A stretch of 64,000 nucleotides of DNA from Methanolobus tindarius DSM 2278 (GTDB lineage Archaea; Halobacteriota; Methanosarcinia; Methanosarcinales; Methanosarcinaceae): positions 2,082,879 through 2,146,878 of the forward strand of contig NZ_AZAJ01000001.1 of assembly GCF_000504205.1 (NCBI RefSeq), read 5' to 3'. Shown in pieces: positions 12,462-48,651 of this stretch. A model generated the notes under the pieces. It saw only the letters and a program-made list of their open reading frames with translations, was not told the origin of the DNA and made no database searches. The stretch's first letter is position 1. Every line of letters begins with the position of its first letter. A program made the translations under genes and the position numbers.

Positions 12462-12462
12462 G

Positions 12463-13029
12463 ATGGCAGGATATACAAGGGAAGTTGCCAGAAGGATATT
12501 TGCACAGGAATTCAGGGAATCTAACCTTAGTTTTAAGGATGGTGATGATCAGTATGCTCCGCAATATCTTCTGACTCCAACAGGTGCTAAAGTTAACAGA
12601 ATTTTCATAGTAGGAACTCTCATCGAAAAAGAAGACATAGGAACTGATTCAGAGTACTGGCGTGGAAGAGTGACCGATCCTACAGGTTCCTTCCTTCTAT
12701 ATGCAGGTCAGTACCAGCCTGAGGCTGCACAAGTGCTTGCAGAATGTGAAACTCCGGCATTTGTAGCGGTTGTTGGTAAGCCAAGCACTTATACAACTAA
12801 CGAAGGTGACGTTATTACTTCAGTAAGGCCAGAATCGCTTCACATAGTAGATGGGCAGACAAGAGATATGTGGGTAATCGAAACTGCAAAATGCACTCTT
12901 GACAGGATTAAAGCACTTGACAGTGCATCTCCAAACTCCCAGAGGGCAAAGGAGTATTACGATCCCGATGCAAAACATTATTCTTCAATGGTTTCTCAGG
13001 CATTGAAATCCCTGAAAGACACATATTAA
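12463..13029 (+). CDS. RPA-associated protein paralogue (OB fold)
   Basis: A 188-residue protein paired with the preceding RPA. It shares with the 3216 gene product the runs REVARRIFAQEFRES, TPTGAKVNRIFIVGTL and TDPTGSFLLYAGQYQPEA. It lacks the roughly 100-residue C-terminal extension of that paralogue, so it is close to a minimal OB-fold unit. I begin at the ATG one base after the rpa stop; an upstream in-frame ATG would lie deep within rpa. By analogy with haloarchaeal rpa3-rpap3, it should form a heteromer with its own RPA. A hairpin terminator follows 2 bases after the stop. Confidence 0.86.
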   Translation: MAGYTREVARRIFAQEFRESNLSFKDGDDQYAPQYLLTPTGAKVNRIFIVGTLIEKEDIGTDSEYWRGRVTDPTGSFLLYAGQYQPEAAQVLAECETPAFVAVVGKPSTYTTNEGDVITSVRPESLHIVDGQTRDMWVIETAKCTLDRIKALDSASPNSQRAKEYYDPDAKHYSSMVSQALKSLKDTY

Positions 13030-27896: not shown

Positions 27897-28265
27897 CTCT
27901 ATTCATAATAGGTGGCTGGTGTAACATGTACATTATAGATATATTTTTTGAATCACTATTCTTATCTATTATCACACTGTTTATGACGAAGTTGTCAATA
28001 CATTACTGATGTATTCAATTCTATAAAATATTAGTATATTATTAATTAGTATATTAATTGCTCAAAATTTATAAAATAAAGGATATTGAATACTTTTATA
28101 ATATATCAGGGTATATTGGTAATCGTGGAGTAATGTGGGGGCATCAGTGATACTACTGAATGTCCGCAAAAGCAATAGACGTAGTTGTATTTATGGTTGT
28201 GTACAGCTCTAAAAGACATAAATGATATATCGGACTCAGATCGCAGATATTTCAAGGGTGAGAGT
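27897..28265. other. Divergent promoter and leader region before the surface-protein cluster
   Basis: A 369-base spacer. It holds a TATA element at 28065-28076 (AAATTTATAAAA) and a possible stem at 28139-28165 in the presumed leader of the first surface protein. The leader would be about 160 bases long. A 27-codon hydrophobic frame (27926-28009) with a weak GGTG upstream is present; I do not call it a gene. The left end should carry the ClC promoter. Confidence 0.4.
28065..28076 (+). promoter_or_regulatory. TATA box of the first surface-protein gene
   Basis: AAATTTATAAAA, matching the element before the third surface-protein gene (35933-35944). Transcription would start near 28100, giving a leader of roughly 165 bases. 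Confidence 0.4.
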
Positions 28266-31200
28266 ATGCATCCCTTTATGAAAAACAGTAAGGAAAACGG
28301 GGTATTGAATTATATCAGGGTATTGTTGGCGGTTTCTATAGTTCTGTCAGCATTCAACCCAGTGCTAGTAGCGGGCGCAAGCTCAGTAATCAACGTTTCA
28401 ATCAGTTCAGACAAGGTCATACAGGGCGATATTGCCAATGTAGTTGTTTCTCTTGAGAATTGTGAGAATATAACCGGAGTAAACATGACTCTGGTATATG
28501 ATCAGAGTGTAGTTTCTCTGAAAAGTATTGGTCTGAACGAAACGGTCATGGCAGGTCATTCTGTAAGTTACAATGACCTTGGTTCTGGAAAAGTATCTAT
28601 CAGTCTTAGTGGACTTGATTCCATAACAACAGCTGTCACTCCGGTAGTAGATGTGGCAATGAAGGGAGATGCTAGTGGAACTTCCAGCATGGAATTGCAG
28701 GACATAGAGTTCATTACAACTGACAGCAGTTCTCCAAGTGAAGCTGTTAGTAATGGAGAGATTAATGTAAACTCTGCTCCAGTGCTTACAGCTATCGGAA
28801 CTCAGACTATTAATGAAACTGAAACTCTGACATTGACATTGACTGCAACAGATGCAGATAATGATCCACTTACATACTCAAAGATAGGAATAGGTTCCCT
28901 TACAAACAATGAGTTTAGCTGGACTCCGGCCTCAGGTGAGAACGGTACTTACGCAGTAAATTTCACTGTTTCTGATGGTTATGAGGAAGCCTCAGAGAAT
29001 GTAACTATTACAGTAAATGTAAATACAAGTCCTGTACCTGGCAATTTTGCACCAGTATTTGATACAATTGATGATATCAACGCAACTGCAGGAAGCCTTG
29101 TGAACTTCACAATTTCTGCAACAGATGCAGATTATGATCCACTTACATATTATAATAATTCCATATTGCCAGCAGATGCAGTGTTCTACCCAGGCAACCA
29201 GACCTTTGTTTGGATTCCTTCTTCTATTGGTACATACAATCTCAATTTTGGTGTAGATGATGGAAACGGTGGTAGCGATTCTCTTGATGTCATGATCACT
29301 GTAGATAATGTAGTGGTTGCAAACAATCCTCCTGTTCTTACCCCTATAGGAGACCAGAGTGTTAACGAGTCCGAACTCCTGGAGATAACACTTAATGCAA
29401 CTGATATCGATGAAGATTCTCTTACATTCACTATCGCAAATATGCCTGCAAATGCTACCTTTGATACCTCCACAGGTAATTTCAGCTGGACTCCAATAGA
29501 TGGTGAGAATGGAACTTACTATGTAACTTTTGGAGTAACAGATGGTGAGGATATTGACACCGAGGATGTAATAATTACTGTAAACGCAGAAAAATCTCCG
29601 GTTTCTGATCCAGTTTATACTCCGGCAAATCCCACTAACTTTGTCAGCACAACCGGCAACTTCTGGGTACTTCATGACTGGGATGCAGGAAATGAAAATA
29701 TCACTGACGGATACAATGTCAGTTACAATGGAACCTGGTACAATATAACAGATTCAAAGTTCAACAATACAATAGACCTGAAGGCTCATAGCTGGTCAAA
29801 CATTACAGTTTATGCTTACAATGCTACTGGCTCCGAACTTTCAGATGGAATTGATAGCAAAGTTCAGATTCCAAACAATCCAATAAGCATCAATGATGTT
29901 GCTTCCTCTTATGTAATTGATGAAGGCAACACACTGTATATAGATGCAAATTATACTGATCTTGATGATGACAGTGCCACCTTTGATTCAAATGATACCA
30001 ATATCTTTGCTGATATTGATGCATCAGGCATTGCTAGCTGGGAGACAAAGCGTAAGGATATTGGAACTCATTATGTCAAATTGACAGTATCAGATGGGTA
30101 CGGTTCTGAAGATTCCCAGATTGTAGAAATTACGGTGACTAATGTAAACACTGCTCCTGAGCTTGCAGCAATTGGTGTACAGTCTGTTTACGAAGGACAG
30201 GAACTTGCATTCACACTAAATGGAATAGATGATGATGGAGACACTCTTGTTTACAATGTAACAGGTCTCCCTTCTGGAGCAACACTGGATGCAAATACAG
30301 GTGATTTCTCCTGGACTCCGGATTATGACATGGCAGGAGAATACACTGCCAACTTCAGTGCAACTGATGGAATAGAAACAGTCTATCAGGAAGCTGCTAT
30401 TACAGTAGAAAACACCAACAGAGCTCCACAGTTCCCTGCATTCGATGAAATCAATGTTGCTGAGAACAACACAATGACACTGGATGTAGGAGCAACCGAT
30501 CTGGACAACGATACCCTTACATATTCATGCAATGCAACTTATGGTGCTTTTTACGCCGCCAATCATACATTTACATGGACACCTGGTTTTGATGATGAAG
30601 GAATGCACTATATCAAATTCACAGTGGCAGATAAATCTACAGAAGACATTGTTATCGTGGCTGTTAATGTAACTAATGTTAACAGAGCACCAATATTCAA
30701 AGCAATTGCAGACCAGACAGTTGGTGAAGGCAATACTTTGTCTTTCACCGTCAATGCAACAGATGAAGATGGAACTGGTCTTACCTATACTGCAGTAAAT
30801 ATTCCTTCGGAATCAACATTCGATTCCGGCACTGGTGATTTCTCCTGGACTCCTGATTATGATAAGGCAGGAAACCACATTGCCAACTTCAGAGTCTCTG
30901 ATGGAGAAGCTGTTGTTTATCAGGAAGTCGCAATTAATGTTACTAATACCAACAGGGCACCACAGTTCCCTACATTTGAAACTGTTAATGCATCCGAGGG
31001 TGTAGAGCTTGTATTAAACATCAGTGCAATCGACCCTGATGGCGACACTCTCAGTTACTCGAATGATGTCAACTTCGGTGCTATAAACGGTACAAATTTT
31101 GAATGGATACCAACTTATAATGATTCAGGCACTCACTATGTAGAGTTCAATGTCTCAGATGGTTCATTGTTCAATACAACTGTTGTAACTATAATTGTAG

Positions 31201-33128
31201 GTAATACTAACCTTGCTCCAGAAATAGATACTGAGTCTATCAGGTCGTATTATATTCTTGATGTAGGTGAAACTGTATCCTTTAATATAATAGCTTCTGA
31301 TGCAGACAATGATACAATAACTTACAATGTAACAGGATTGCCAGAAAGTGCAAACCAGAGCCTAAATTCAAATACTGGTGCTTTCAGTTGGAAACCTGTA
31401 TCTGTTGATGGTGACAATGTATTCAATGCTGTTTTTACAGTATCTGATGGAAATCTTTCAGATTCAGTAACAACAACATTTGCAGTTGATGTACTCAATA
31501 CTCCGCCAACTCTGGAAGAGATTGATATTCAAGAGATAAATGAAACAGATTATTTGAAGATTGAACTCAACGGTTCCTCAGGTGATGGTGATTCAATTAC
31601 CTACAACGCAACAGGACTGCCTGATGGTTCAACATTCGATAAAATTAATGGTATCTTTGAATGGACTCCTACTTATGAGCAAAGTGGAACTTACTCTGTA
31701 ACATTTAGTGTAACAGATGGAGTATTCACTGAAAAAGAAAAGGGAGTTATTATTGTTTCCAACGTGAACAGGGCTCCTTACTTTGAAACAATGCCAGATT
31801 ATGTTGTTAATGAGACAGAGGAACTTAGTATCACACTTAATGCTACAGACCTTGATTCTGAAGATGTGAATTCTCTTGAATTCCAGTCAGATGTAGCATA
31901 CGGGTACATAACAGACAATGTTTTTACATGGACTCCTGGCTACACAGCAAATCAGACATCAAATGGTCTCTATGAAATTAACTTTACAGTATCAGATGGT
32001 GAGTTCACTGACAAAACAGTTGTAACTGTAACAGTTAATGATGTAAATGCACCACCTGTACTGAGTGCAATAGGCTCTCAAAGTGTGGATGAAGGTGACG
32101 AGCTCACAATTAATCTCACAGCAACAGACGTAGATGGTGACAGTCTGACCTTCACAATAGCTAATGAGCCTGCAAATGCTACCTTTGATACATCTACGGG
32201 TAACTTCAGCTGGACTCCTATAGATGGAGAGGCAGGAACTTACTATGTGCTGTTTGGTGTAGATGATGGAGAACTTAATGACACTGAAAATGTGACAATA
32301 ACTGTTGATTCAGTTTCTTCAAGCAGCAGCTCCAGTTCCAGCTCAAGCAGCAGTGGCGGCGGTGGCGGTGGCGGTTCACTGTCCAGTGGAGAGAAGTTTG
32401 AGAATATCTTCATCAAGGATTATGTACTCAAATCCATAGTAAAGGATACAGAAGCCGTGTTCTCATTCTATAAAGAGAATAACAGTATCGTTTCTGTAAG
32501 CTTTACACCAAAGCTCAACGGTGGTCAGGTTAAGGCTGTAGTTGAGATGCTGTATGACACATCCAGTCAGGTAAGCTCTGATGCACCTGGCAATGTTTAC
32601 AAGAACATGAACATTTACGTGGATACCAAGCTATCTTCAGATGCAATGGGTAACTCAAAGATCAATTTCAAGGTCGAAAAGGAATGGATTGATGAGAATG
32701 AGATTGAAATCTCTACAATTACACTTAGCAGATACTCTGGCGGGTGGGCAGAACTGCCAACCGAACTCGAAGGTGAAGATGAAGATTACTACTATTTTGT
32801 AGCCACTACTCCGGGATTCTCTCCATTTGCAATTTCCAGCGTAGATCCCACACTTGAAGTAACAGAAGAAGCTTCTTCAGAAGTTTCAGAGGAAAATCCA
32901 CAGGATGCAGAGTCAATGATGTCAACAGAAGATGCAACCCAGATGGAGCTTTCAACCGAAACACCTCAGGAAGGCCAGTCTTCAATTGTACCTATAGTTG
33001 TTCTGCTGGGTCTGATAGTTCTGACAGTTGTAGGGATATTCGGGTACAGAAACAGGGATTACTACGAGAAGGTGAAGTTGCAGCTAGGAAATCCTGATGG
33101 AAAGCGTTACAGACGTGCTAAAAAGTAA
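28266..33128 (+). CDS. Giant surface protein 1: cohesin-like domain, 12 Ig-like repeats, PGF-pre-PGF domain, membrane anchor
   Basis: About 1620 residues. A signal peptide (to about 36) is followed by a cohesin-like domain (about 38-165: VNVSISSDKVIQGDIANVVV, then NMTLVYDQSVVSLKSI). Twelve He_PIG/cadherin-like repeats of about 90 residues run from 171, each with a DPDGD-like acidic loop and an FSWTPDY strand. A fibronectin-like insert around residues 450-540 (GYNVSYNGTWYNIT) splits repeats 3 and 4. Then come a Ser/Gly linker, a PGF-pre-PGF domain (about 1375-1525, GEKFENI to GFSPFAIS) and one membrane segment (about 1574-1594) with a short basic tail ending NPDGKRYRRAKK. N-glycosylation sequons (NxT/S) are frequent. 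I start at ATG 28266, with AGGGTGA 5 bases upstream. Likely a cell-surface adhesin or sheath component. Confidence 0.87.
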   Translation: MHPFMKNSKENGVLNYIRVLLAVSIVLSAFNPVLVAGASSVINVSISSDKVIQGDIANVVVSLENCENITGVNMTLVYDQSVVSLKSIGLNETVMAGHSVSYNDLGSGKVSISLSGLDSITTAVTPVVDVAMKGDASGTSSMELQDIEFITTDSSSPSEAVSNGEINVNSAPVLTAIGTQTINETETLTLTLTATDADNDPLTYSKIGIGSLTNNEFSWTPASGENGTYAVNFTVSDGYEEASENVTITVNVNTSPVPGNFAPVFDTIDDINATAGSLVNFTISATDADYDPLTYYNNSILPADAVFYPGNQTFVWIPSSIGTYNLNFGVDDGNGGSDSLDVMITVDNVVVANNPPVLTPIGDQSVNESELLEITLNATDIDEDSLTFTIANMPANATFDTSTGNFSWTPIDGENGTYYVTFGVTDGEDIDTEDVIITVNAEKSPVSDPVYTPANPTNFVSTTGNFWVLHDWDAGNENITDGYNVSYNGTWYNITDSKFNNTIDLKAHSWSNITVYAYNATGSELSDGIDSKVQIPNNPISINDVASSYVIDEGNTLYIDANYTDLDDDSATFDSNDTNIFADIDASGIASWETKRKDIGTHYVKLTVSDGYGSEDSQIVEITVTNVNTAPELAAIGVQSVYEGQELAFTLNGIDDDGDTLVYNVTGLPSGATLDANTGDFSWTPDYDMAGEYTANFSATDGIETVYQEAAITVENTNRAPQFPAFDEINVAENNTMTLDVGATDLDNDTLTYSCNATYGAFYAANHTFTWTPGFDDEGMHYIKFTVADKSTEDIVIVAVNVTNVNRAPIFKAIADQTVGEGNTLSFTVNATDEDGTGLTYTAVNIPSESTFDSGTGDFSWTPDYDKAGNHIANFRVSDGEAVVYQEVAINVTNTNRAPQFPTFETVNASEGVELVLNISAIDPDGDTLSYSNDVNFGAINGTNFEWIPTYNDSGTHYVEFNVSDGSLFNTTVVTIIVGNTNLAPEIDTESIRSYYILDVGETVSFNIIASDADNDTITYNVTGLPESANQSLNSNTGAFSWKPVSVDGDNVFNAVFTVSDGNLSDSVTTTFAVDVLNTPPTLEEIDIQEINETDYLKIELNGSSGDGDSITYNATGLPDGSTFDKINGIFEWTPTYEQSGTYSVTFSVTDGVFTEKEKGVIIVSNVNRAPYFETMPDYVVNETEELSITLNATDLDSEDVNSLEFQSDVAYGYITDNVFTWTPGYTANQTSNGLYEINFTVSDGEFTDKTVVTVTVNDVNAPPVLSAIGSQSVDEGDELTINLTATDVDGDSLTFTIANEPANATFDTSTGNFSWTPIDGEAGTYYVLFGVDDGELNDTENVTITVDSVSSSSSSSSSSSSSGGGGGGGSLSSGEKFENIFIKDYVLKSIVKDTEAVFSFYKENNSIVSVSFTPKLNGGQVKAVVEMLYDTSSQVSSDAPGNVYKNMNIYVDTKLSSDAMGNSKINFKVEKEWIDENEIEISTITLSRYSGGWAELPTELEGEDEDYYYFVATTPGFSPFAISSVDPTLEVTEEASSEVSEENPQDAESMMSTEDATQMELSTETPQEGQSSIVPIVVLLGLIVLTVVGIFGYRNRDYYEKVKLQLGNPDGKRYRRAKK
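28776..32310. repeat. Twelve Ig-like coding repeats of surface protein 1
   Basis: Each unit spans about 85-95 codons from an (A/P)PVL start to TVxNTNR or equivalent. The DNA copies are diverged, so the repeats are old. Shared landmarks are ATDxDxDxLTY, FSWTPDYD and FTVSDG. Confidence 0.8.
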
Positions 33129-33145
33129 AAATAGCATGTTATATG

Positions 33146-33169
33146 GCAGTCATATGTCTTATGCTGCCT
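33146..33169 (+). terminator. Hairpin after surface protein 1
   Basis: GGCAG and CTGCC pair over a 14-base loop 17 bases after the stop codon, followed by TGTTTTTCCTTTTTT. It would partly separate the first and second genes. Confidence 0.45.
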
Positions 33170-33300
33170 GTTTTTCCTTTTTTGCTCTTTTAACCCTTAT
33201 CTGCCTGAATATATTTATTTTAGAATATTCAATTAAGTTTATCATTTTAAAAACTCAAGATAAGATCTATCATGGAGGGGATTTTATCTTTAAACACGTC

Positions 33301-35829
33301 ATGCATGGGTTTCCAGACATAACTGGAAGTTTGAGCAACTTAAGGAATAAGAGCATTTGCATAATCTCACTAAAAGTATTGCTACTTCTGGTTTTTATTA
33401 CAGGATTGTTGATCCAGGGAGTTTCAGCAGCAAGCAATTCTCCTGTGCTTTCGGTGATCGGTGACCATTCTGTCAATGAAAACAGTCAGCTTACATTCAC
33501 TCTTTCTGCAACAGATCCTAACAATGATTCTCTTACCTTTTCCGCATCAAATATGCCATCAGGTGCAGCTTTGAATAATTCCACGGGCGTGTTCACATGG
33601 ATCCCCAATTATGATCAGGCAGGCAGTTACCTTACCAAATTTGTCGTTTCTGACGGTTCCAATGTGGATTCTGAATATATAACAATAACAGTGAACAATG
33701 TGAATCGTGAACCTGTATTTTCCTCTCTTAACTCATTTACGGCAGAGGAAAATAGTGAGCTGGAAATAACACTGTCAGCAACAGATGATGACAGTGACCT
33801 TCTTGTATTTGGCAAAGATGTTTCGTATGGAAATATTGAAGGCAATGTTTTCACCTGGATACCTGAATATGATGATCAGGGACTCCATACGATAATGTTC
33901 AGTGTAAATGATGGCCAGTTCACTGTGACACAAACTGCTGAAGTTAATGTTTCAAACATAAATCGTGCTCCTGTTCTCTATCCTATTAGTGATACGCTTG
34001 TTGAGGCGAATGAGGATATTACAATTGAGTTGAATGCTTTTGATCCGGATGGCGATTCCCTTAATTATTCTAACGTTACAGAGCTACCAGTCGGTGCGGC
34101 ACTTGAAGCTTCAACAGGTGTTTTCACATGGATCAATCCAACAGAACTTGGCACAAAAGCATTGACTTTTAAAGTAAATGATGGTGTAGGGTCAGATACG
34201 CAGACAGCCACGATAGTGATAGGAAATTCAAATACCCCTCCTGTAATCGATACAATAGATACCCTTTATGTAAATGAGAATTCCACCTTGAATTTCGAAC
34301 TGTCAGCAACAGACCCGGATGGCGATTCATTAGCATTTTCCTGGCCAACAGGATTGCCAAATACAGCATCTATAACAATGCAAAGTTCTTCTATAAATGT
34401 AAGTTTTACTCCTACATATGAAGAAGCAGGTGATTATCATGCTGTATTCAGGGTGGCAGACAGTCATTCAAGTTATAGGGTGGTGGATATAGTTGTATCT
34501 GATGTTAATCGTGCTCCTGTAATGGGTTCAGTAGCAGACGATACAGTTGCAGAGAATGATGTGCTATACATCGATCTTACAGGGTCAGACGCAGACAATG
34601 ATGAATTAACTTATTCCACAAACAGTAGTTTTGGAACTATAAGAGGCAACACTTTCATCTGTACTCCGGATTACACCGATGCCGGGACTTATGATGTACT
34701 ATTTACAGTTTCAGACGGCAGTTTGAGTAACAGTACAATTGCAACGATTACTGTAACAGATGTCAATATGCCTCCGAAGCTTAATACTATGAGTGCAAAA
34801 AAAGTAGATTATAATGATACTCTGGAGTTTTATTTATCCACAGAAGATGTAGATTCGAGCAACACTTTGACATATACCTGCCTTGAAACTCCTTCAAACG
34901 CCACACTGGATTCCTCCTCCGGACTGTTTAGCTGGATACCTGTTGCAAGTCAGGTAGGCACTTATTCTGTAAGTTTTTATGTAACAGATGGTAGTGCAGA
35001 AGACTATGAAACTGTATCTATAACAGTAACAGAGCCTTCCTCTTCCAGCAGTTCAACAACTTCATCATCAGGAAGTAGTGGTGGCGGTGGCGGAGGTTCC
35101 CAGAATACAGGTGAAAAGTTCGAAAATATAGAGTTCAAAGACTATGCCCTCAAATATGTAATGAAGGATAAGGAAACTGTATTTGAATTCGATGAACCTG
35201 CTAACAACATAGTCTCTATAAGTTTTGTCTGTAAACTTAATGGAGGGCAGACTAAAACCATTATTGAGATGCTGAAAGGAACTTCTGCTCTCGTAACGTC
35301 AGCACCTTCTGGTAATGTGTACAAGAACCTTAACATCTGGGTAGGAGATTCAAAGTTTCCGTCTGATGTGATTTCAGATGTAATAATCAGGTTCAAAGTG
35401 GAAAAGTCGTGGCTCAATTCTAATGATGTTGACCAGGATTCAATTGTGCTTTCCCGTTACTCAGATGGGAAGTGGACACTTCTGGAAACCTCTTTTGAAA
35501 GTGATGATGGGGATTACCTATATTATGCAGCTAAAACACCTGGTTTTTCACCATTTGCCATTCTTGTACCTGATATAACTGAAACAATCCTGAGTGAGAA
35601 CATCTCTGCTGTAAACCAATCTCTTATGTCAATGGGGGATGAGATTGTTCCGGTTTCAAGTGAAACATCCCAGGATAAAAGTAGCAGCAAAGGAATTTTG
35701 TTATTTTTGCTTGCATGTATAATTACTGCTGTTGGAGTCGTGGGCTATAAATATAGAGGACACTACGAGCAATTGTATCTCCAGATAAGTAATCCTGATG
35801 GAAAAAGATACAGACGCCTGAAAAAATGA
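33301..35829 (+). CDS. Surface protein 2: 6 Ig-like repeats, PGF-pre-PGF domain, membrane anchor
   Basis: About 842 residues with the plan of its neighbours but no cohesin-like domain. A long signal peptide (hydrophobic core LKVLLLLVFITGLLIQG) is cleaved near GVSAAS (about 43). Six repeats follow (44-577, for example DPDGDSLNYSN and FTWIPEYDD), then a Ser/Gly linker, a PGF-pre-PGF domain from about 605 (GEKFENIEFKDYALKYV), and an anchor at about 798-817. The tail ends NPDGKRYRRLKK, nearly identical to that of surface protein 1. The start is uncertain: the open frame extends back into the previous gene, but ATG 33301 gives a sensible signal peptide. A GGAGGGG lies about 20 bases before it, further than usual. 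A hairpin terminator overlaps the stop. Confidence 0.8.
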   Translation: MHGFPDITGSLSNLRNKSICIISLKVLLLLVFITGLLIQGVSAASNSPVLSVIGDHSVNENSQLTFTLSATDPNNDSLTFSASNMPSGAALNNSTGVFTWIPNYDQAGSYLTKFVVSDGSNVDSEYITITVNNVNREPVFSSLNSFTAEENSELEITLSATDDDSDLLVFGKDVSYGNIEGNVFTWIPEYDDQGLHTIMFSVNDGQFTVTQTAEVNVSNINRAPVLYPISDTLVEANEDITIELNAFDPDGDSLNYSNVTELPVGAALEASTGVFTWINPTELGTKALTFKVNDGVGSDTQTATIVIGNSNTPPVIDTIDTLYVNENSTLNFELSATDPDGDSLAFSWPTGLPNTASITMQSSSINVSFTPTYEEAGDYHAVFRVADSHSSYRVVDIVVSDVNRAPVMGSVADDTVAENDVLYIDLTGSDADNDELTYSTNSSFGTIRGNTFICTPDYTDAGTYDVLFTVSDGSLSNSTIATITVTDVNMPPKLNTMSAKKVDYNDTLEFYLSTEDVDSSNTLTYTCLETPSNATLDSSSGLFSWIPVASQVGTYSVSFYVTDGSAEDYETVSITVTEPSSSSSSTTSSSGSSGGGGGGSQNTGEKFENIEFKDYALKYVMKDKETVFEFDEPANNIVSISFVCKLNGGQTKTIIEMLKGTSALVTSAPSGNVYKNLNIWVGDSKFPSDVISDVIIRFKVEKSWLNSNDVDQDSIVLSRYSDGKWTLLETSFESDDGDYLYYAAKTPGFSPFAILVPDITETILSENISAVNQSLMSMGDEIVPVSSETSQDKSSSKGILLFLLACIITAVGVVGYKYRGHYEQLYLQISNPDGKRYRRLKK
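33439..35035. repeat. Six Ig-like coding repeats of surface protein 2
   Basis: Units of about 86-92 codons from an xPVL start to TVxNVNR. They are the most diverged of the three arrays; FTWIP replaces FSWTP in most copies and unit 5 has FICTP. Confidence 0.75.
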
Positions 35830-35851
35830 TGCTGTTGCATCCCGCATCATT
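35825..35851 (+). terminator. Hairpin terminator after surface protein 2
   Basis: AATGATGC and GCATCATT form an 8-bp stem over an 11-base loop, overlapping the stop codon. A T-rich run (TATTTTATCTGTTTTTT) follows. Confidence 0.5.
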
Positions 35852-35932
35852 ATTTTATCTGTTTTTTGGCACACTACATACTCATTATATTGATTATGTT
35901 CAGGTATAATTATTATATCGATGTAATTAAAA

Positions 35933-35944
35933 AAATTTATAATC
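35933..35944 (+). promoter_or_regulatory. TATA box of surface protein 3
   Basis: AAATTTATAATC, sharing AAATTTATAA with the element before surface protein 1. The implied leader is about 100 bases. Confidence 0.4.
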
Positions 35945-36063
35945 TATAAGTGATTAGGTCTTTAATGGTGGGTGGTAGTGCTTTCTCCTTGGGGGTACAC
36001 CAATAAAAACGTTATATTAGAAGGCAGTTTCATCCTCCTTTAAGAATGCTTTGGGGGAAAAGC

Positions 36064-39000
36064 ATGTTTCCTAAAGGAACGGAAAAATGTAAAAAAATAG
36101 GTTTTATTTTCATAAGTATAGCTTTGTCAATATTGTTGCTGTCCGTATTTGCCAGTGCATATTCGAATGAAACAGTAATTGTAGGCTCAACTGTAGTTAA
36201 TCCTGGAGTTTCATTCTCACTTCCCGTGTTTGTAGATAACATTACAAATATCGGGTTATTGTCTTTTGATATTCTCTTTGATAATTCGTCTATCCATATT
36301 GAAGATATTTCTGCCAACATTACAATGCAAAGTTCGGATCCTGATTCTTATCTTGATAACTCTACAGGTTTTGCCAATACTACATTTTATTTCGATAATC
36401 TTTCAAGTGAAGATGAACTTCACATTGCCAACCTGATGTTCAGATCGCTGGTCAGTGGCAATACTTATGATATTGTACTCAGAAATGTTTCATTTTCAAA
36501 CAATACAAGTTCATTCCCTGCTGGCTATGTTGTTAATGGTTCTGTCAGGGTAAACTCTCCACCTGTAATAAACGATATTGAGAATAAGACCGTAAATATT
36601 GGTTCAAACCTGAACTTTACTATTTCTGCAACAGATCAGGATGAAATGGATAATATAAATCTGAGTTATGCTGTGGAAGGGCTTCCTGGAGGCTATTTAC
36701 TCAATTCCAGCAACGGATCTTTTTCATGGACACCAGCTGAAACTGATATTGGTAATCATAGTGCAAATTTCTCGGTTTCTGACGGTTACGCATTAGATTT
36801 TACTTCTGCAACTATATTTGTTAAGGAAATAGCAGCAGTTATTGACCATAAGCCAGAACTTCTGCCTATAGGTAATAAATCGGTAAATGAAACCGAAACT
36901 CTTTCATTTTTGCTTCAGGCAACAGATCTGGATAATGATCCAATTACATATTCTTCTGAAATTCTTCCTGATAATTCTACATTGAATGAAACTTCAGGCG
37001 AGTTTAAATGGGTTACTGATTATTCAGATTCAGGCGACTATATTGTAGAGTTCATTGCCTCCTCTACAGATAAAAGTGATTCTGAAACCATTTATATTGA
37101 AGTTACAAATCTCAATCAAGCTCCGGTTCTGGAAGAAATTACTGAACAATATGTAAATGAAACCGAAACTCTGGAGCTGACTCTCCTTGCAAATGATTCC
37201 GATTCCGGTGCCATTCTTAGTTACTCAACCAATGCTACATTTGGCGAATTGTCAGGCAGTATTTTCACCTGGACTCCCGATTATAATTCAGCCGGAACTT
37301 ACGTTGTAGAATTCACTGTAAACGACACAATGGATACAGATTCACAAACCGTGATTATTAATGTTGGAAATACTAATCGTCCACCTGTTCTTGATCCCAT
37401 AGGTAATTTTGAGGTTAATGAAAACGACTCTCTCTCAATCACTTTATCAGCCAACGATTCCGATGGAAATAGTTTGGCATATTCATCCAATGTTTCATTC
37501 GGCAGTATTTCAGGTAACACTTTCACCTGGATTCCTGAATTTGATGATGCTGGCACTTATGATGTAGAATTTACTGTAAGTGACGGTATTGATTTAGATT
37601 CAAAGATTGCTACTATAATCGTGAATAATACAAACCGTCCCCCTGATCTTAAGGGTATAGGTTCCCAATCAGTTTTGGAAAATTCTCTTCTTGAGATTAC
37701 TCTTTCGGCTACAGACCCGGATTCTGAAGACTCTTTGACCTATGGTTTTAATGCCAGTTTTGGTAATCTGTCAGGGGATGTTTTCACCTGGATCCCTGGA
37801 TTTGATGATTCAGGTATTTACAATGTTGAATTTAATGTGAGTGATGGTTCGCTCGTGGATTATGAAGTAATAACAATCACTGTTAGCAATGTTAATAATG
37901 AACCGGTCCTGACAGAAATCGGTGAGAAATATATCAGTGAAAATGACACTTTAATAATTACTCTTTCTGCAACAGATGCAGATAATGATGCTAACTTAAC
38001 TTATTCAACCAATGCTACATTCGGAAATTTATCAGGAATTGTCTTCACCTGGAAGCCAGACTATGATTCTGCCGGAATTCATGTTGTTGAATTCACAGTC
38101 TCAGATGGCATGGATTCAGATTCTGAAACAGTAGTCATCAACGTTGAAAATATAAATCGTGCTCCTGTGCTATCCTCAATTGAAAATTTAGAGATAAATG
38201 AAAATGAACTTATGTCAATTACTTTGCCGGGTTCAGATCCCGATGGCAATAATTTGATCTATTCAAGTAACGTTACATTTGGTCATGTGTCTGACAACAT
38301 TTTCACCTGGACTCCAGGTTACGATGATGCAGGAGTTTATATAATTGAATTTACTGTAAGTGATGAATTTGATTCAGATACCGAAATTGTTACTGTGACA
38401 GTAAATAATGTCAATCGTGCTCCAGATCTTTCACCCATTGGGTCCTATAGTGTAGATGAAAATTCATCGCTAATAATTTCTCTGGATGCAGCAGATTTTG
38501 ATTCAGAAGACACTCTTGATTATGATTGCAATGTTAGCTTTGGAAACCTAAATGACAGTATCTTCACCTGGACTCCTGACTATGAAAGTTCCGGTGTTTA
38601 TGCCATTGAATTTACTGTAAGTGATGGAAATGAATCTGACTCTGAAGTTGCCGTGGTAACTGTGAATAATGTCAACAGGGCTCCTGTTCTAACATCTCCA
38701 GGTTCCTATTCCGTTGCTGAAAATTCAGCTCTTGTGATTACTCTTTCAGCAAATGACCCTGACTTTGGTGATTCCCTCTACTTTAGTCACAATGTTACTT
38801 CTGCAAGTATGGAAGATAATGTGTTCACCTGGATTCCTGATTTCAACCAATCGGGTGTTCATGCAATAGAGTTCACTGTAACTGACGGAAACCTTTCGGA
38901 TTCGGCAGTTGCTATCGTCACTGTAACTAATACAAATCGTGCGCCCTTCATTCAACCGATATCTGATAAACTTGTATATGAAAATCAAGAGCTGGTAATC

Positions 39001-42000
39001 CAGATAGATGGCAGCGATCCTGATGATGACTTACTGACTTATGAGACAAGTGCATCCTTTGGTAATCTTGAAGGCAACGTTTTCATCTGGACGCCCAGTT
39101 ATGATGATAGTGGAATTTATGATGTAAGCTTCACAGTTTCAGATGGCAATCTGACATATACGGAATACATAAAAATTGCTGTAGGTAACACCAACGTACC
39201 GCCTGTTCTAGATACAATTGGTGGAAAAACCGTTGATGAAAATCAATATCTTTCATTTACTATAAATGCAAGTGATGCAGATTCGGGCGACACTCTTACT
39301 TATTCTGCATCAGGACTTCCTTCCGGTGCATCATTTAATGACCAGAACCGTCAGTTCTCATGGACTCCGACATATAACCAATCAGGAACACATAATGTGG
39401 TCTTTGAAGTGAGTGATGGACTCTTCACTGACACTGAACTTGTCCAGATAGTTGTTAATAATATCAACATTGCTCCTTTCCTTGCACCCATTGGTAACAT
39501 AACCGTCAATGAAACTTCTAAAATTATCTTTATTGTAACAGCTACTGATCATGATAAAGATAGTCTGACATATTTGATATCTAATCCGTCTAACGTAGGC
39601 AGTTTCAATTCTATAACCCATGAATTCCGCTGGATACCTGGTTATGATGACTCTGGAACCTATAATCTGACTTTTACTGCAAGTGATGGTGTTCTTTCTG
39701 ACTCTGAAACAATATACATTGAAGTTAAGAATGTTAACAGGGCTCCAGAACTGGATCCTATAGGTAATAAAGTTGTCAATGAAGCAGAGCAACTCTCATT
39801 CACAATAATTGGCAGTGATCCTGATTATGATTCCCTGGATTATTCTGCCAATGGAATCCCGGATGGTGCAGACTTCAATGAACTTACACATACTTTCACC
39901 TGGACTCCTGACTATGATGATTCAGGAGCTTATGATGTAACTTTCACTGTTAGTGATGGTACTCTTTCCGATTCCGAAACTATTACTATCAGCGTTGGCT
40001 CTGCTAACCGTCCCCCAGAACTGGATTACATTGGTGACAAAACTGCTGTAGAAGGCTCAGAACTTAGTTTCAGTATAAATGCTAGCGACCCTGATATGAC
40101 CACTCTTACTTACACGACATCTGTTCTCCCTGAAGGTGCAGATTTTGATGAAAATACGCTTGCTTTTACCTGGACTCCTGACTATGATCAGGCAGGTAGT
40201 CATTCAATAACTTTCACTGTAGGTGACGGTGAACTTTATGATTCCGAAACAATCTCCATAGATGTTGCTAACACAAACCGTGCCCCAACACTATCAGAAA
40301 TTGGAAACAAGAATGTTGCAGAAGGTGAGGAACTTTCGTTCACAGTAATTGGTAATGATCCTGATTCTGAACTTTTGACTTATTCAGCTAGTGGAGTACC
40401 CGATGGTGCAGACTTTGATGAATCTACACGTACTTTCCTCTGGACTCCTGATTATGACGATTCAGGATCTTATGATGTCAACTTTACAGTTAGTGATGGT
40501 GATCTTTCAGACTCTGAAACAATTACTATTAGCGTTGGTTCTGTTAATCGTCCACCTGAGCTGGAGTCTATAGGCGATAAAAATGCTGTGGAAGGTTCAG
40601 GATTAAGTTTCACAATTAATGCTACAGATCCTGACCAGAACAGTCTTAGTTATTCTACATCTGCTCTTCCTGCAGGTGCAGATTTCGATGAAGAAACACT
40701 CACTTTTGTCTGGATTCCTGACTATGACCAGGCAGGCAGCCATTCTGTTACATTTACTGTAAGTGATGGTGAGCTCTCCGATTCCGAGACAATTTCCATA
40801 GGTGTTGAGAATACAAATCGTGCTCCAGTAATGGCCAATATTGAAGACGTATCTGTGGATGAAAATTCTGAACTGATAATTTCAGTCTCAGCAACAGATC
40901 CGGACGAGGAATCATTGTCATATTCAGTTACAGGTAAACCTGAAAGTTCAATATTCAATACCCAGACGCACAAGTTGGTATGGACTCCTGATTATAATGA
41001 ATCCGGAGTCTACAACGTTACTTTTACTGTCACTGATGGTGACCTTTCAGATTCACAGACAGTAACCATTACGGTAAACAATGTCAACCGTCCACCTGTC
41101 CTCACAAACATAGGCAACAAAAATGTAGATGAAAATACAACGTTGTCTTTCATTATAAGTGCTGAAGATCCGGATCTAGATGATCTTATATATTCAGCCA
41201 CAGAGTTACCAGATGCTTCAGAATTTGATCCTGAAACCCATGAATTTAGCTGGACACCGGATTATGGGGAATCCGGCATTTATTCCGTAACTTTCACTGT
41301 CAGTGATGGTGAGCTTTTCGATTCCGAGACGGTAACCATCAGCGTAGGTCTGGTGAACCGTGCTCCGGAACTAGTTCCAATTGGGGATAAAACAGTTGCT
41401 GAAGGCTCAGAACTTAATTTCACAATAAGTGCTGCAGACCCTGATGAAGATAATCTTGAATACTCTGCGTCTGAGCTTCCGGATGGAGCCGATTTTGATG
41501 AAGATTCCTATACTTTTAGCTGGAGTCCTGATTATGAACAGGAGGGCAGTTATTCTGTAACATTTACTGTTAGTGACGGCTCTCTTACAGATTCCGAAAC
41601 CGTATTCATAGATGTTGAAAATACAAATCGTGCCCCATTGTTGTCTGAAATAGGAAACAAGAATGTTGCAGAAAGTGAGAAACTTTCATTCACAATAGAT
41701 GGCAGTGATCCTGACAATAATCCTCTAAGTTACTTTGCTTCAGGCCTTCCTGATGATGCTGTTTTCAATTCAAATACTCGCAGCTTTATCTGGACTCCGG
41801 GTTATGATGACTCCGGCATTTATGAAGTAACTTTTACCGTTACTGATGGAGAGCTCAATGATTCCGAAACCATCAGTATTTCAGTAGGTGCCGTGAATCG
41901 TCCTCCCGTGCTTGTACCTATAGGAAACAAGATTGTAAATGAAAACTCTGAACTTTCATTCAATATTGCAGGAACAGATCCGGATGAGGATGATCTTACA

Positions 42001-45000
42001 TATTACATTGAAAATAAACCAATTGATGCTAATTTTGATGAAAATACAGGCTATTTCAGCTGGATACCTGACTACAATGCATCAGGCGTTTATTCCGTAA
42101 CTTTTGGAGTAAACGATGGTTCATTAACTGATTCCGAAACAATCAGCATAACAGTGTATCATGTCAATCGTGCTCCTGTCCTTGGTAACATCGGTAACAA
42201 ACAGGTAAATGAAGGCACAGAACTTTCATTCAATGTGTCTGCAGAGGACGAAGATGGTGACACTTTAATCTACTATACAAACGCCCTCCCCCAGAGTGCA
42301 GTCTTTGATCCTGAAGCCCGTGAGTTTAGCTGGACTCCGGATTTTGAGGATTCAGGTTCTTATTCCGTAACTTTCTATGTAAGTGATGGCTATCTTGTTG
42401 ATTCTGAAACCATTACTATTAGTGTTGGCTCAGTAAATCGTGCACCAGAGCTGGTTCCTATTGGCGATAAAACAGTTGACGAAGGTTCTGAATTAAGGTT
42501 TGCAGTATCAGGTTCTGATCCTGATTTAAATGATCTGACTTATTCAGTAACGGGTCTTCCGTCAGGCGCAGATTTCGATGAAGATACACAGGAATTTACC
42601 TGGTATCCGGATTATGACCAGTCAGGAACCTATAATGTAACTTTTAGCGTGAGTGACGGAGTTCTCTCTGATTCTGAAACCATAACTATTACTGTTGTTT
42701 CAGTAAATCGCTCTCCGGAACTGGTTCCTATAGGTGACTTGTTTGTAAATGAAAATGAACTATTGACCATAAATCTGCAGGCAAATGATGAAGATGAAGG
42801 CGATGTTCTTTATTATTCAGTGGTAGATGCTTCCGGCGATTCCACAATTGATTCTTCAACCGGTGTTTTTACATGGACGCCTTCATATGATGAGGCCGGG
42901 ATACATTACGTTGTATTCTCAGTTTCTGACGGTCAGGCAGAGGATACTGAAAATGTAAAAATAACAGTTGCAAACGTCAACAGACCACCACAAATAGACA
43001 TACCTTCTCCGGTCTATGTGGCTGAGAATGATACTTTGGTCCTCGATCTGAACGCATCTGATCCCGACAATACACCACTTGGGATAAGCAAGGACTTTGG
43101 GTCAGGTTCTCTTGATGATGGTATTTTCACATGGAATACAGGTTATGAAGACGAGGGCAGTTATTTCGTGACTTTTACTGTCAGCGATGGTGAGTTAGAA
43201 GTAAGCCAGACAGTTGAGATAATAGTTACTGGTTCTAACTCAGCCCCGGTGCTCTCTCCTATAGATAGTATTGTTGTTAATGAACTCGAAACGCTGTCTA
43301 TTGATCTTACAGCGAATGATATAGATAATGACGAACTTAACTTTTCAAAGGATGTGGAATATGGTGAGCTCACAGACAATATATTCACATGGACTCCCGG
43401 AATAAATGATAAAGGAATTTATTATATTGTTTTTACAGTCTCAGATGGTCAGCTTTCTGATTCCAAGACTGCCATGATTGCTGTAGGTAATACGAATATT
43501 CCCCCAACTATAGTAAAAACAGGAAATCAATATATTAATGAAAATGAGACTCTGGAGTTTACTCTTAATGCCACTGACCTGGATAATGAGACACTGACTT
43601 ATGCAGTTACAGATCTTCCATCCGGTGCCACCTTTAATACTTCCTCAGGTTCTTTTAAATGGACCCCTACTTATGAGCAATCAGGTGAATATAGCATCGA
43701 ATTCCGTGTATCTGATTTGCTATACACAGCTTTTGACACTGTACTTGTCAATGTTGAGAACGTAAATCGTGCACCGGTATTTGATTTTATACCCACGTGT
43801 GAGGTGAATGAGACTGAACAGGTAAAGATAAACCTGAGTGCCGGGGATCCTGATGGTAATTCTCTTTCATTCTTAACAGATTTTGAGAATGGAAAGATAA
43901 TCGGAGACACTTTTGTATGGGATACAGGATATTATGACAGTGGCGAATATTACATAATTTTCAATACAACAGATGGTGAACTTTATGATAGCACTACGGT
44001 TTATGTACTGGTAAATCCAACAAACATGCCTCCTGAAATGGAATCAATAGGTTCACGTTCCATCTATGAGAATGAGACACTGGAATTTTATGTGAACGCA
44101 ACTGATGCTGACAATGATAGTCTTACATATACCGTAAGTGGTGCACCATCTGGCTCTTCATTGGATCCGGATACAAGACTTTTCCATTGGATTCCTAATT
44201 ACAGACAGTCAGGTTCTTACTCTATAGAATTCCATGTAACTGATGGGGAGTTCAATGATTCAGAGGCTATTACCATCAGAGTCTATGATGTTGATAACAA
44301 GGTAACAGATTACAGCGGTTTTTCATCATCAGACAGTAGCAGTGGTGGTGGCGGAGGTGGAGGTTCCAGCGGTGCTGAAGACTATAACAATGTAGCATAC
44401 AAAGATTATTCTATTAAATATGTGACACAGGGCTCCCAAATAGAGTTCGCGTTCCCAAATTCAGAAAACGATCTTGATTCCGTGAAGTTCACAGCCCTTA
44501 AGGCAGCTGGTCAGGTAAAGACAGTAATTGAGATATTGTACGACCGCTCCTCCCTTGTAAGCACCAATCCACCTGGAAATGTTTATCGTTACATCAACAT
44601 ATGGGTAGGTGACACCAAGTTCAATTCAGGAAATTATTTCTCCTCGGCAGAGGTTTCATTCAAGGTTTCAAAACAGTGGCTTGAGGATAACAACGCAGAG
44701 CCGGAATCTGTAAAACTTTACAGGTATTCCGGTGGTTCATGGAGTGAATTGAAAACATCAAGAATAGGCACCGATGTGAACAATTACTATTTCAAGGCAC
44801 AGACTCCGGGATTCTCTCCTTTTGCTATTGCAAGCACGGGCAGCACTTCAATCCTCCGCAGTTCGGTTACTGAGTCAACTGCACAGAGTACAAAAGTGAG
44901 CTATGAAAGCAATGCGGAACTAAATTCTATGAATGACGTTCCCGATGCGGAAATAATGAGCAAGGCACTTGAACAGGAACCAGTTAGTCCTTTTAATACA

Positions 45001-45282
45001 AGAATTCTTTTCATAGGAATTGTAGGCATTTTGTTAATTGGTTCTGCAGTAGGTTATCGTTCCAGAAATGAATCCCCTGTACTTCGAAGATATTATGAGG
45101 CAATTCATGCATTCGTTCTTGGAATAAAAAATGCAGGAGAATGGACAGCTCATAAACTAAGTTCCGAATCCCTGAATAAAGACTATGCAGCTCTCAGTGT
45201 GAAATGGGATGAGATAAAGTCCACCGACTATAAGGCAATCTATGAAAAGAAACTCGCTGAAATCAAAGAAAGACAGAAGTAG
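36064..45282 (+). CDS. Giant surface protein 3: cohesin-like domain, 29 Ig-like repeats, PGF-pre-PGF domain, membrane anchor and cytoplasmic tail
   Basis: About 3072 residues, the largest gene in the window. A signal peptide (IGFIFISIALSILLLSVFASA) is followed by a cohesin-like domain (about 38-160: VNPGVSFSLPVFVDN, LSFDILFDNSSIHIEDI). Twenty-nine repeats cover 166-2745. Repeats 3-10 are an 86-87 residue type with (S/T)FGxLSGxxFTW; repeats 11-23 are mostly a 90-residue type with LPxGADFDExT; repeats 24-29 are mixed. A Ser/Gly linker, a PGF-pre-PGF domain (about 2771-2925) and an anchor (about 2981-3000) follow. Then comes a roughly 72-residue helical cytoplasmic tail, unlike the short tails of proteins 1 and 2. 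The product is strongly acidic, with many DxD loops that may bind calcium. ATG 36064 has GGGGGA at 5 bases. Probable long surface fibre or adhesin. Confidence 0.87.
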   Translation: MFPKGTEKCKKIGFIFISIALSILLLSVFASAYSNETVIVGSTVVNPGVSFSLPVFVDNITNIGLLSFDILFDNSSIHIEDISANITMQSSDPDSYLDNSTGFANTTFYFDNLSSEDELHIANLMFRSLVSGNTYDIVLRNVSFSNNTSSFPAGYVVNGSVRVNSPPVINDIENKTVNIGSNLNFTISATDQDEMDNINLSYAVEGLPGGYLLNSSNGSFSWTPAETDIGNHSANFSVSDGYALDFTSATIFVKEIAAVIDHKPELLPIGNKSVNETETLSFLLQATDLDNDPITYSSEILPDNSTLNETSGEFKWVTDYSDSGDYIVEFIASSTDKSDSETIYIEVTNLNQAPVLEEITEQYVNETETLELTLLANDSDSGAILSYSTNATFGELSGSIFTWTPDYNSAGTYVVEFTVNDTMDTDSQTVIINVGNTNRPPVLDPIGNFEVNENDSLSITLSANDSDGNSLAYSSNVSFGSISGNTFTWIPEFDDAGTYDVEFTVSDGIDLDSKIATIIVNNTNRPPDLKGIGSQSVLENSLLEITLSATDPDSEDSLTYGFNASFGNLSGDVFTWIPGFDDSGIYNVEFNVSDGSLVDYEVITITVSNVNNEPVLTEIGEKYISENDTLIITLSATDADNDANLTYSTNATFGNLSGIVFTWKPDYDSAGIHVVEFTVSDGMDSDSETVVINVENINRAPVLSSIENLEINENELMSITLPGSDPDGNNLIYSSNVTFGHVSDNIFTWTPGYDDAGVYIIEFTVSDEFDSDTEIVTVTVNNVNRAPDLSPIGSYSVDENSSLIISLDAADFDSEDTLDYDCNVSFGNLNDSIFTWTPDYESSGVYAIEFTVSDGNESDSEVAVVTVNNVNRAPVLTSPGSYSVAENSALVITLSANDPDFGDSLYFSHNVTSASMEDNVFTWIPDFNQSGVHAIEFTVTDGNLSDSAVAIVTVTNTNRAPFIQPISDKLVYENQELVIQIDGSDPDDDLLTYETSASFGNLEGNVFIWTPSYDDSGIYDVSFTVSDGNLTYTEYIKIAVGNTNVPPVLDTIGGKTVDENQYLSFTINASDADSGDTLTYSASGLPSGASFNDQNRQFSWTPTYNQSGTHNVVFEVSDGLFTDTELVQIVVNNINIAPFLAPIGNITVNETSKIIFIVTATDHDKDSLTYLISNPSNVGSFNSITHEFRWIPGYDDSGTYNLTFTASDGVLSDSETIYIEVKNVNRAPELDPIGNKVVNEAEQLSFTIIGSDPDYDSLDYSANGIPDGADFNELTHTFTWTPDYDDSGAYDVTFTVSDGTLSDSETITISVGSANRPPELDYIGDKTAVEGSELSFSINASDPDMTTLTYTTSVLPEGADFDENTLAFTWTPDYDQAGSHSITFTVGDGELYDSETISIDVANTNRAPTLSEIGNKNVAEGEELSFTVIGNDPDSELLTYSASGVPDGADFDESTRTFLWTPDYDDSGSYDVNFTVSDGDLSDSETITISVGSVNRPPELESIGDKNAVEGSGLSFTINATDPDQNSLSYSTSALPAGADFDEETLTFVWIPDYDQAGSHSVTFTVSDGELSDSETISIGVENTNRAPVMANIEDVSVDENSELIISVSATDPDEESLSYSVTGKPESSIFNTQTHKLVWTPDYNESGVYNVTFTVTDGDLSDSQTVTITVNNVNRPPVLTNIGNKNVDENTTLSFIISAEDPDLDDLIYSATELPDASEFDPETHEFSWTPDYGESGIYSVTFTVSDGELFDSETVTISVGLVNRAPELVPIGDKTVAEGSELNFTISAADPDEDNLEYSASELPDGADFDEDSYTFSWSPDYEQEGSYSVTFTVSDGSLTDSETVFIDVENTNRAPLLSEIGNKNVAESEKLSFTIDGSDPDNNPLSYFASGLPDDAVFNSNTRSFIWTPGYDDSGIYEVTFTVTDGELNDSETISISVGAVNRPPVLVPIGNKIVNENSELSFNIAGTDPDEDDLTYYIENKPIDANFDENTGYFSWIPDYNASGVYSVTFGVNDGSLTDSETISITVYHVNRAPVLGNIGNKQVNEGTELSFNVSAEDEDGDTLIYYTNALPQSAVFDPEAREFSWTPDFEDSGSYSVTFYVSDGYLVDSETITISVGSVNRAPELVPIGDKTVDEGSELRFAVSGSDPDLNDLTYSVTGLPSGADFDEDTQEFTWYPDYDQSGTYNVTFSVSDGVLSDSETITITVVSVNRSPELVPIGDLFVNENELLTINLQANDEDEGDVLYYSVVDASGDSTIDSSTGVFTWTPSYDEAGIHYVVFSVSDGQAEDTENVKITVANVNRPPQIDIPSPVYVAENDTLVLDLNASDPDNTPLGISKDFGSGSLDDGIFTWNTGYEDEGSYFVTFTVSDGELEVSQTVEIIVTGSNSAPVLSPIDSIVVNELETLSIDLTANDIDNDELNFSKDVEYGELTDNIFTWTPGINDKGIYYIVFTVSDGQLSDSKTAMIAVGNTNIPPTIVKTGNQYINENETLEFTLNATDLDNETLTYAVTDLPSGATFNTSSGSFKWTPTYEQSGEYSIEFRVSDLLYTAFDTVLVNVENVNRAPVFDFIPTCEVNETEQVKINLSAGDPDGNSLSFLTDFENGKIIGDTFVWDTGYYDSGEYYIIFNTTDGELYDSTTVYVLVNPTNMPPEMESIGSRSIYENETLEFYVNATDADNDSLTYTVSGAPSGSSLDPDTRLFHWIPNYRQSGSYSIEFHVTDGEFNDSEAITIRVYDVDNKVTDYSGFSSSDSSSGGGGGGGSSGAEDYNNVAYKDYSIKYVTQGSQIEFAFPNSENDLDSVKFTALKAAGQVKTVIEILYDRSSLVSTNPPGNVYRYINIWVGDTKFNSGNYFSSAEVSFKVSKQWLEDNNAEPESVKLYRYSGGSWSELKTSRIGTDVNNYYFKAQTPGFSPFAIASTGSTSILRSSVTESTAQSTKVSYESNAELNSMNDVPDAEIMSKALEQEPVSPFNTRILFIGIVGILLIGSAVGYRSRNESPVLRRYYEAIHAFVLGIKNAGEWTAHKLSSESLNKDYAALSVKWDEIKSTDYKAIYEKKLAEIKERQK
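36559..44300. repeat. Twenty-nine Ig-like coding repeats of surface protein 3
   Basis: Repeats begin with (A/P)PxL and end with VNRAP or NTNRAP joins. Units 3-10 are 258-261 bp, units 12-23 are exactly 270 bp, and the rest vary. A two-unit 540-bp tandem duplication lies at 39742-40821. Confidence 0.85.
39742..40821. repeat. 540-bp two-unit tandem duplication inside surface protein 3
   Basis: Units 13-14 (39742-40281) and 15-16 (40282-40821) align as pairs. They share GADF, TITISVGSxNRPPEL and DYDQAGSHS positions that the other units lack together. Junctions alternate ISVGSxNR and VxNTNR, giving a period of two units. Confidence 0.75.
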
Positions 45283-48594: not shown

Positions 48595-48643
48595 AGGAGA
48601 TTCAAAACTCTCTTTTCCTCATCCCCTTTTTTCCTAAAAATTT

Positions 48644-48651
48644 AATTTTAT
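48644..48651. repeat. Left 8-bp target duplication of the ISL3 element
   Basis: AATTTTAT, identical to the right copy at 49926-49933 and directly next to the left terminal inverted repeat. Confidence 0.85.

Follow-up and report, generated by a model that had tools for sequence, protein, structure and literature searches.

Three consecutive genes in the window, by which we mean the whole stretch of 64,000 nucleotides that was analysed (G000:C1:2082879-2146878, in a host genome that is a single contig of 3,151,883 bases), make up what we read, with a probability of roughly 0.6, as a Methanolobus-specific surface-display site for adhesive or docking stalks. In the arrangement that we propose, one conserved promoter/leader would start a tandem array of genes that encode single-pass membrane proteins. 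An N-terminal signal would direct each protein to export, and a C-terminal helix would hold it in the cytoplasmic membrane with a short tail inside. Adjacent to the membrane would lie the PGF-pre-PGF domain, a beta-sandwich with a predicted ZU5/GAIN-like fold, from which a rod of Ig/cadherin-like beads would point outward in the window's three proteins. The distal cohesin of proteins 1 and 3 would bind either a secreted protein that has a dockerin or some other partner, and with a partner held at the tip these two proteins would act as adhesive or docking stalks. Selection would keep the anchor, namely the leader, the ZU5/GAIN-like domain, the helix and the tail, and the outer part would shift as repeats are gained or lost and ectodomains exchanged. 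The reading of the three proteins as membrane-anchored surface stalks is well supported, adhesion by them is plausible as judged from their sequences, and a signalling role is possible. Because some members of the locus lack Ig-like repeats of this type or carry other ectodomains, the term stalk does not fit all of them.

Gene 1 (28266..33128) encodes a type I membrane surface protein of 1620 residues with 12 Ig/cadherin-like repeats, gene 2 (33301..35829) one of 842 residues with six repeats and without a cohesin, and gene 3 (36064..45282) one of 3072 residues with 29 repeats; the genes and all features described within and before them lie on the forward (+) strand. The first two lengths are counted from the ATG codons at 28266 and 33301; the frame of gene 1 reaches back to a TTG at 28185, and that of gene 2 is open from 33097. 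Each protein has a signal-like N-terminus, a Ser/Gly linker and a C-terminal transmembrane segment. A sequence-only reading had given the coordinates, lengths and repeat counts of these three neighbouring genes, and they are borne out by the open reading frames and by an HMM built on the repeats of gene 3. It had also placed a PGF-pre-PGF domain in all three proteins, which TIGR04213 confirms with scores of 156-175 bits (cut-off 28), and the domain searches that it had proposed as a check were run and matched He_PIG, Big_9, Cadherin_4/5, cohesin and TIGR04213. Its view that the proteins share one design holds for the repeats, the linker, the PGF-pre-PGF domain and the anchor, but the cohesin and an excess of glycosylation sequons are confined to proteins 1 and 3, and the tails differ in length. 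The informative features of the locus, which that reading did not name, are the leader, the tail, the ZU5/GAIN-like domain and the distinct make-up of gene 2.

The repeats occupy 28770..32315 in protein 1 (gene 3-based HMM; Pfam He_PIG/Big_9), 33439..35031 in protein 2 (the same HMM) and 36553..44289 in protein 3 (Pfam, the same HMM and register across species). The Pfam names that they receive are He_PIG, Big_9 and Cadherin_4/5, with whole-protein E-values of about 1e-20 to 1e-210, and the 20 He_PIG and 27 Big_9 stretches in protein 3 place it among He_PIG/cadherin-like (CADG) proteins. The array of protein 1 is interrupted at about 29586-29908 by a non-repeat insert, delimited with the HMM, which has no Pfam match. 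N-glycosylation sequons are in excess in protein 1 (59 vs 28.4 +- 4.8 in shuffles) and in protein 3 (78 vs 48.5 +- 6.0), and not in protein 2 (15 vs 13.1 +- 2.9). An extended Ig/cadherin bead measures 4 to 4.5 nm, and at this spacing the rods would reach about 25 nm for gene 2, 50 nm for gene 1 and 120 nm for gene 3. The gene 2 product, which is short and constant and has neither a cohesin nor a sequon excess, probably works close to the envelope.

The distal cohesins (PF00963, gathering score 24.1) lie at 28389..28769 in protein 1 (24.9 bits) and at 36175..36549 in protein 3 (30.8 bits), and protein 2 starts straight with its repeats. A profile made from the protein 3 cohesin and its relatives in the genus and the genome matches solved scaffoldin cohesins at 5e-9. 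Cohesin matches number ten in the genome and dockerin matches two, of which one exceeds its cut-off; one dockerin is part of a protein of about 1150 residues that looks exported and also has a cohesin of its own and He_PIG-type repeats. The two dockerins are possible partners of the tip cohesins, though ten cohesin matches compete for them, and proteins with cohesins and dockerins may form a surface docking network. Noncellulosomal cohesin-dockerin proteins are described in archaea (PMC9012536, citing Peer et al. 2009). The present case resembles these systems in having cohesins on surface proteins and dockerin proteins in the same genome, and differs from them in that lone cohesins tip an anchored stalk of 12 or 29 repeats. 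Two further observations concern the dockerin genes. A weak dockerin match ends a large protein (L184:1-3147; G000:C1 ~2753692), and the next gene encodes a two-cohesin protein. A transposase-bearing element found in the window at about 48630-49920 has ten copies in the genome, two of which flank the gene for the cohesin-He_PIG-dockerin protein in an arrangement resembling a composite transposon (G000:C1:2692261-2699001).

The PGF-pre-PGF domains (TIGR04213) extend over 32391..32837 in protein 1, 35113..35565 in protein 2 and 44377..44832 in protein 3. The domain was modelled twice with AlphaFold2, once with protein 2 as the query and 24 locus relatives aligned, and once with protein 3 as the query and 18 further PGF-pre-PGF domains from the genome; the two alignments overlap only in the domain of protein 1. 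Both models are confident beta-sandwiches with pLDDT above 90 over most of the domain (93.6 for the protein 3 model, with a pTM of 0.88), and the best solved matches of both fall in one superfamily. The Z-scores for the two models are 9.4 and 9.7 with ankyrin ZU5, 8.3 and 9.2 with the GAIN domain of CD97, 8.3 and 9.1 with that of BAI3, 7.3 and 7.8 with that of CELSR1, and 7.8 and 7.1 with NLRP1, where a Z of 8 is near the level at which common arrangements show up. Searches of the PGF-pre-PGF sequence against Pfam and the PDB, which can miss remote relatives, gave no match to ZU5, GPS or GAIN. In both models, the aligned chain of cleaved receptors ends on the Phe of the motif G-F-S-x-F, at GPR56 382 and latrophilin 1 837, which we take to be the residue just before the GAIN cut, and the F-S pair of PGF-pre-PGF is thus predicted to fall on the GAIN self-cleavage (GPS) site. 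F-S is almost always kept, but none of the 156 motif-bearing PGF-pre-PGF domains has the catalytic His that precedes the cleaved bond. The domain is therefore not an autoproteolytic GAIN/ZU5 domain with the H-[LF]-[ST] triad, and self-cleavage or release is not predicted.

Taken together, the models make it probable that PGF-pre-PGF adopts a fold of the ZU5/GAIN/FIIND superfamily, an assignment that we do not claim as new. Liao and colleagues reportedly extended ZU5-like domains to bacteria and archaea in 2014. The ZU5 superfamily as defined by Zhang et al. 2012 (PMC3482391) includes the GPS domain and also occurs in bacteria, in large surface proteins that carry adhesion modules, and up to 24 PGF-pre-PGF domains per genome have been described in methanogens and ANME archaea (PMC5244752). 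The predicted fold is that of the GAIN domain of adhesion GPCRs and polycystins, of ankyrin ZU5 and of NLRP1 FIIND, and as in GAIN proteins the domain sits between adhesive repeats and the membrane with F-S at the cleavage site. Unlike the GAIN, ZU5 and FIIND proteins, it has no catalytic His and no sequence similarity detectable with Pfam or the PDB, and the membrane part is single-pass here as against seven-pass in adhesion GPCRs.

Hydropathy places the transmembrane segments at 32970..33053, 35680..35754 and 44983..45063 in proteins 1, 2 and 3. They are followed by tails of 24, 24 and 72 residues, located by tail alignment and a pattern scan in protein 1 (33054..33125, with GNPDGKRYRRAKK) and protein 2 (35755..35826, with SNPDGKRYRRLKK) and by ORF translation and hydropathy in protein 3 (45064..45279, ending in IYEKKLAEIKERQK). 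The motif N-x-DGKRYRR at the end of proteins 1 and 2 and their relatives is invariant in 25 of 25 aligned tails and, since it comes after the helix, should lie in the cytoplasm. A scan with a DNA pattern for the motif hit 23 of the 27 Methanolobus genomes and none of the family's 85 others, and a reversed control pattern had no match in the same scan. The copies cluster, mostly two or three per genome, and their codons differ, indicating that the conservation is at the protein level; conservation of the DNA itself is thereby rejected. One species has short tails without DGKRYRR at this locus (L045), so the tail is not indispensable. The genome encodes archaeosortase A and has 21 TIGR04213 matches, and proteins 1-3 share this domain with the PGF-pre-PGF/PGF-CTERM proteins that archaeosortase A anchors. 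Unlike those, they keep the helix and a tail of 24-72 residues, and a search for the PGF-CTERM signal TIGR04126 found none in them up to an E-value of 1, nor is there a PGF motif before the helix. TIGR04126 is weak in this genome, where it matches two of six paralogues, each time below its cut-off. Anchoring of proteins 1-3 by archaeosortase was rejected on the absence of PGF-CTERM.

The juxtamembrane position of the predicted ZU5/GAIN-like fold, which is that seen in adhesion GPCRs, raises the question of whether the proteins are sensors resembling adhesion receptors, in which an outer stalk would be pulled or bound, the ZU5/GAIN-like domain would transmit, and the DGKRYRR tail would bind an inner partner. 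The F-S pair on the GPS site fits this explanation, as does the cytoplasmic tail, which is better conserved than any other stretch of the aligned C-terminal region and has varying codons. We nevertheless consider it unlikely, given that no self-cleavage or release is predicted for a domain that lacks the catalytic His in all 156 motif-bearing copies, that no cytoplasmic effector is known, that one species lacks the tail, and that many PGF-pre-PGF paralogues of the genome terminate immediately behind the helix. The corresponding broader proposal, that PGF-pre-PGF is an archaeal branch of ZU5/GAIN used as in animal adhesion receptors, with a cadherin-like stalk and a conserved tail in a single-pass sensor of contact or force, is likewise doubtful.

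The display-site reading draws on a comparison of the locus across the family. The genes are flanked by a ClC-type channel gene (26136-27896) and an ADP-forming acyl-CoA synthetase (Acd) gene (45402-47501), and in each of the 13 Methanolobus genomes that were compared, the window included, PGF-pre-PGF genes lie between the two, as a rule two to four of them. In six genomes from other genera, this site is without a PGF-pre-PGF gene in a neighbourhood that is much alike (ClC is present in four), and in one of the six (L055) the ClC and synthetase genes are about 170 bases apart. The cluster, which the sequence-only reading did not recognise as a unit, can thus be placed as a Methanolobus-specific locus. 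Repeat numbers for genes 1/2/3 are 12/6/29 in the window, 12/6/30 in genome G039, 12/6/25 in M. vulcani PL 12/M, 9/6/24 in M. profundi Mob M and 11/6/13 in M. vulcani B1d; in genome G004, gene 1 is duplicated, with 2 and 11 repeats, and genes 2 and 3 have 6 and 14. The remaining Methanolobus loci lack gene 2 or gene 3 or carry other ectodomains on the same anchor (Big_3 in L048, Big_2 and PKD in L052, Big_2 in L053). Gene 1-type proteins have 0-24 repeats in the genus and gene 3-type proteins 13-30, so that the graded reach suggested earlier fits the anatomy of the three proteins in the window but the grading 6/12/29 is not kept in the genus. The suggestion of a sheath system has nothing in its favour, and sheath or fibre assembly is rejected.

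Gene 2 has six repeats in seven other species too, and nearly all of these repeats align one-to-one. Repeat 1 and repeats 24-29 of gene 3 correspond one-to-one with those of close species, and units 13-23 change; the middle of gene 3 has a two-repeat period, units 13/15 and 14/16 being 75-76% identical. By this comparison of repeat sequences, the rod grows and shrinks in the middle with its ends fixed. One gene 2 orthologue (L046:11825-14362) carries a PGF-pre-PGF domain and tail of the gene 1 type, which probably reflects gene conversion between neighbouring anchors. Another Methanolobus genome has an IS66-type transposase between two gene 1 copies (L050:4971-6287). A second tandem of PGF-pre-PGF giants occurs elsewhere in the host genome (G000:C1:2576690-2587506; L060:2691-13507), with proteins of 2119 and 1445 residues, the larger of which has 12 repeats of the same kind and no DGKRYRR tail. 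The window also holds two look-alike neighbouring gene pairs (1909-4088 and 11535-13029), which by their translations resemble single-stranded DNA-binding proteins of the replication protein A type.

These patterns bear on the explanation that the proteins are structural beams of the envelope, linking the membrane, the S-layer and an outer coat without a specific ligand. A PGF-pre-PGF paralogue in the genome has four S-layer duplication domains, and protein 2 is short and constant, as such a role would lead one to expect. On the other hand, Pfam and TIGR searches gave no match to the S-layer duplication domain in proteins 1-3, the repeat number and the ectodomain differ strongly among close species, and proteins 1 and 3 bear distal cohesins, which together make this explanation improbable.

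The surface-display reading also includes the region ahead of the genes. A conserved non-coding promoter/leader at 28086..28265 has a TATA-like TTTATAATATAT, then GTGGAGTAATGTGGGGGCATCAGTG...CACTG.ATGTCCGC. It is 75-97% identical (77-97% over 28086-28200) in 22 of 27 Methanolobus genomes, where it stands before the first surface gene of the locus irrespective of the ectodomain encoded downstream. A genome normally has one copy of it; G004, with its duplicated gene 1, has two. The stretch 28086-28200 is more conserved across species than the protein encoded after it. No known RNA or riboswitch was matched in Rfam. A possible hairpin at 28138-28168 can form in most of the sequences, with covariation not clearly above controls, and the folding energy of the leader is unremarkable (z -0.55). 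A sigma-70 promoter scan was uninformative because the host is an archaeon. The region upstream of gene 3 (35896..36063) is also conserved, at 88-91% identity in close species and with shorter matches in more distant ones.

In comparisons with two close species, the flanking ClC gene has a dN/dS of 0.06, gene 2 one of 0.11-0.15, gene 3 one of 0.15-0.17 and gene 1 one of 0.29-0.31, and the PGF-pre-PGF domains give 0.06-0.16. Values well under 1 reflect purifying selection and indicate that the three genes work and are constrained; positive selection on whole genes or domains was rejected, the highest value being 0.48. The stalks evolve fast. Fast-evolving stalks between conserved flanks, ectodomain replacement, a probable exchange of C-terminal parts among adjacent genes and the IS66 insertion in one species are what would be seen at a diversifying recognition surface shaped by conflict with viruses or kin or by self/nonself discrimination, with a logic like that of VARTIG, but this is very improbable in view of dN/dS far under 1 throughout, a conserved membrane-proximal end, which is the reverse of VARTIG, and the absence of any toxin or immunity genes seen within the intervals.

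Loci of several large PKD/Ig-domain surface proteins are present in Methanosarcinales, for example in Methanosarcina acetivorans (Makarova et al. 2021, PMC8416519). The Methanolobus locus is like them in its tandem of large secreted Ig-fold genes, its recombination mosaics and its conserved or homogenised C-terminal part, and unlike them in its genus-specific site, conserved leader, invariant tail, cohesin tips and one member with a constant repeat number. Like the VARTIG modules of Thermococcales (PMC8416519), it is a locus for large Ig-domain surface proteins that varies among species. In VARTIG, however, the C-terminal Ig domain is variable and the downstream genes are varied (PMC8416519), whereas in Methanolobus it is the outer stalk that varies, on a constant C-terminus; with its C-terminal region as the conserved part, the locus does not belong to VARTIG, which is defined by a hypervariable C-terminal Ig domain. 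The Methanolobus locus is thus a variant of known multi-gene Ig-fold loci with a constant signature of its own.

For the biology of these archaea, the locus offers a unit that can be deleted as a whole. Its anchor stays the same and its stalks form a natural range of 6-30 beads among the species, so that the distance to which an archaeal cell extends past its S-layer could be studied directly. Should the ZU5/GAIN-like fold be borne out, it would give a structural identity to a domain that single Methanosarcinales genomes encode in as many as about twenty proteins, and archaea would be known to combine adhesive repeats with a GAIN-like domain on the membrane side.
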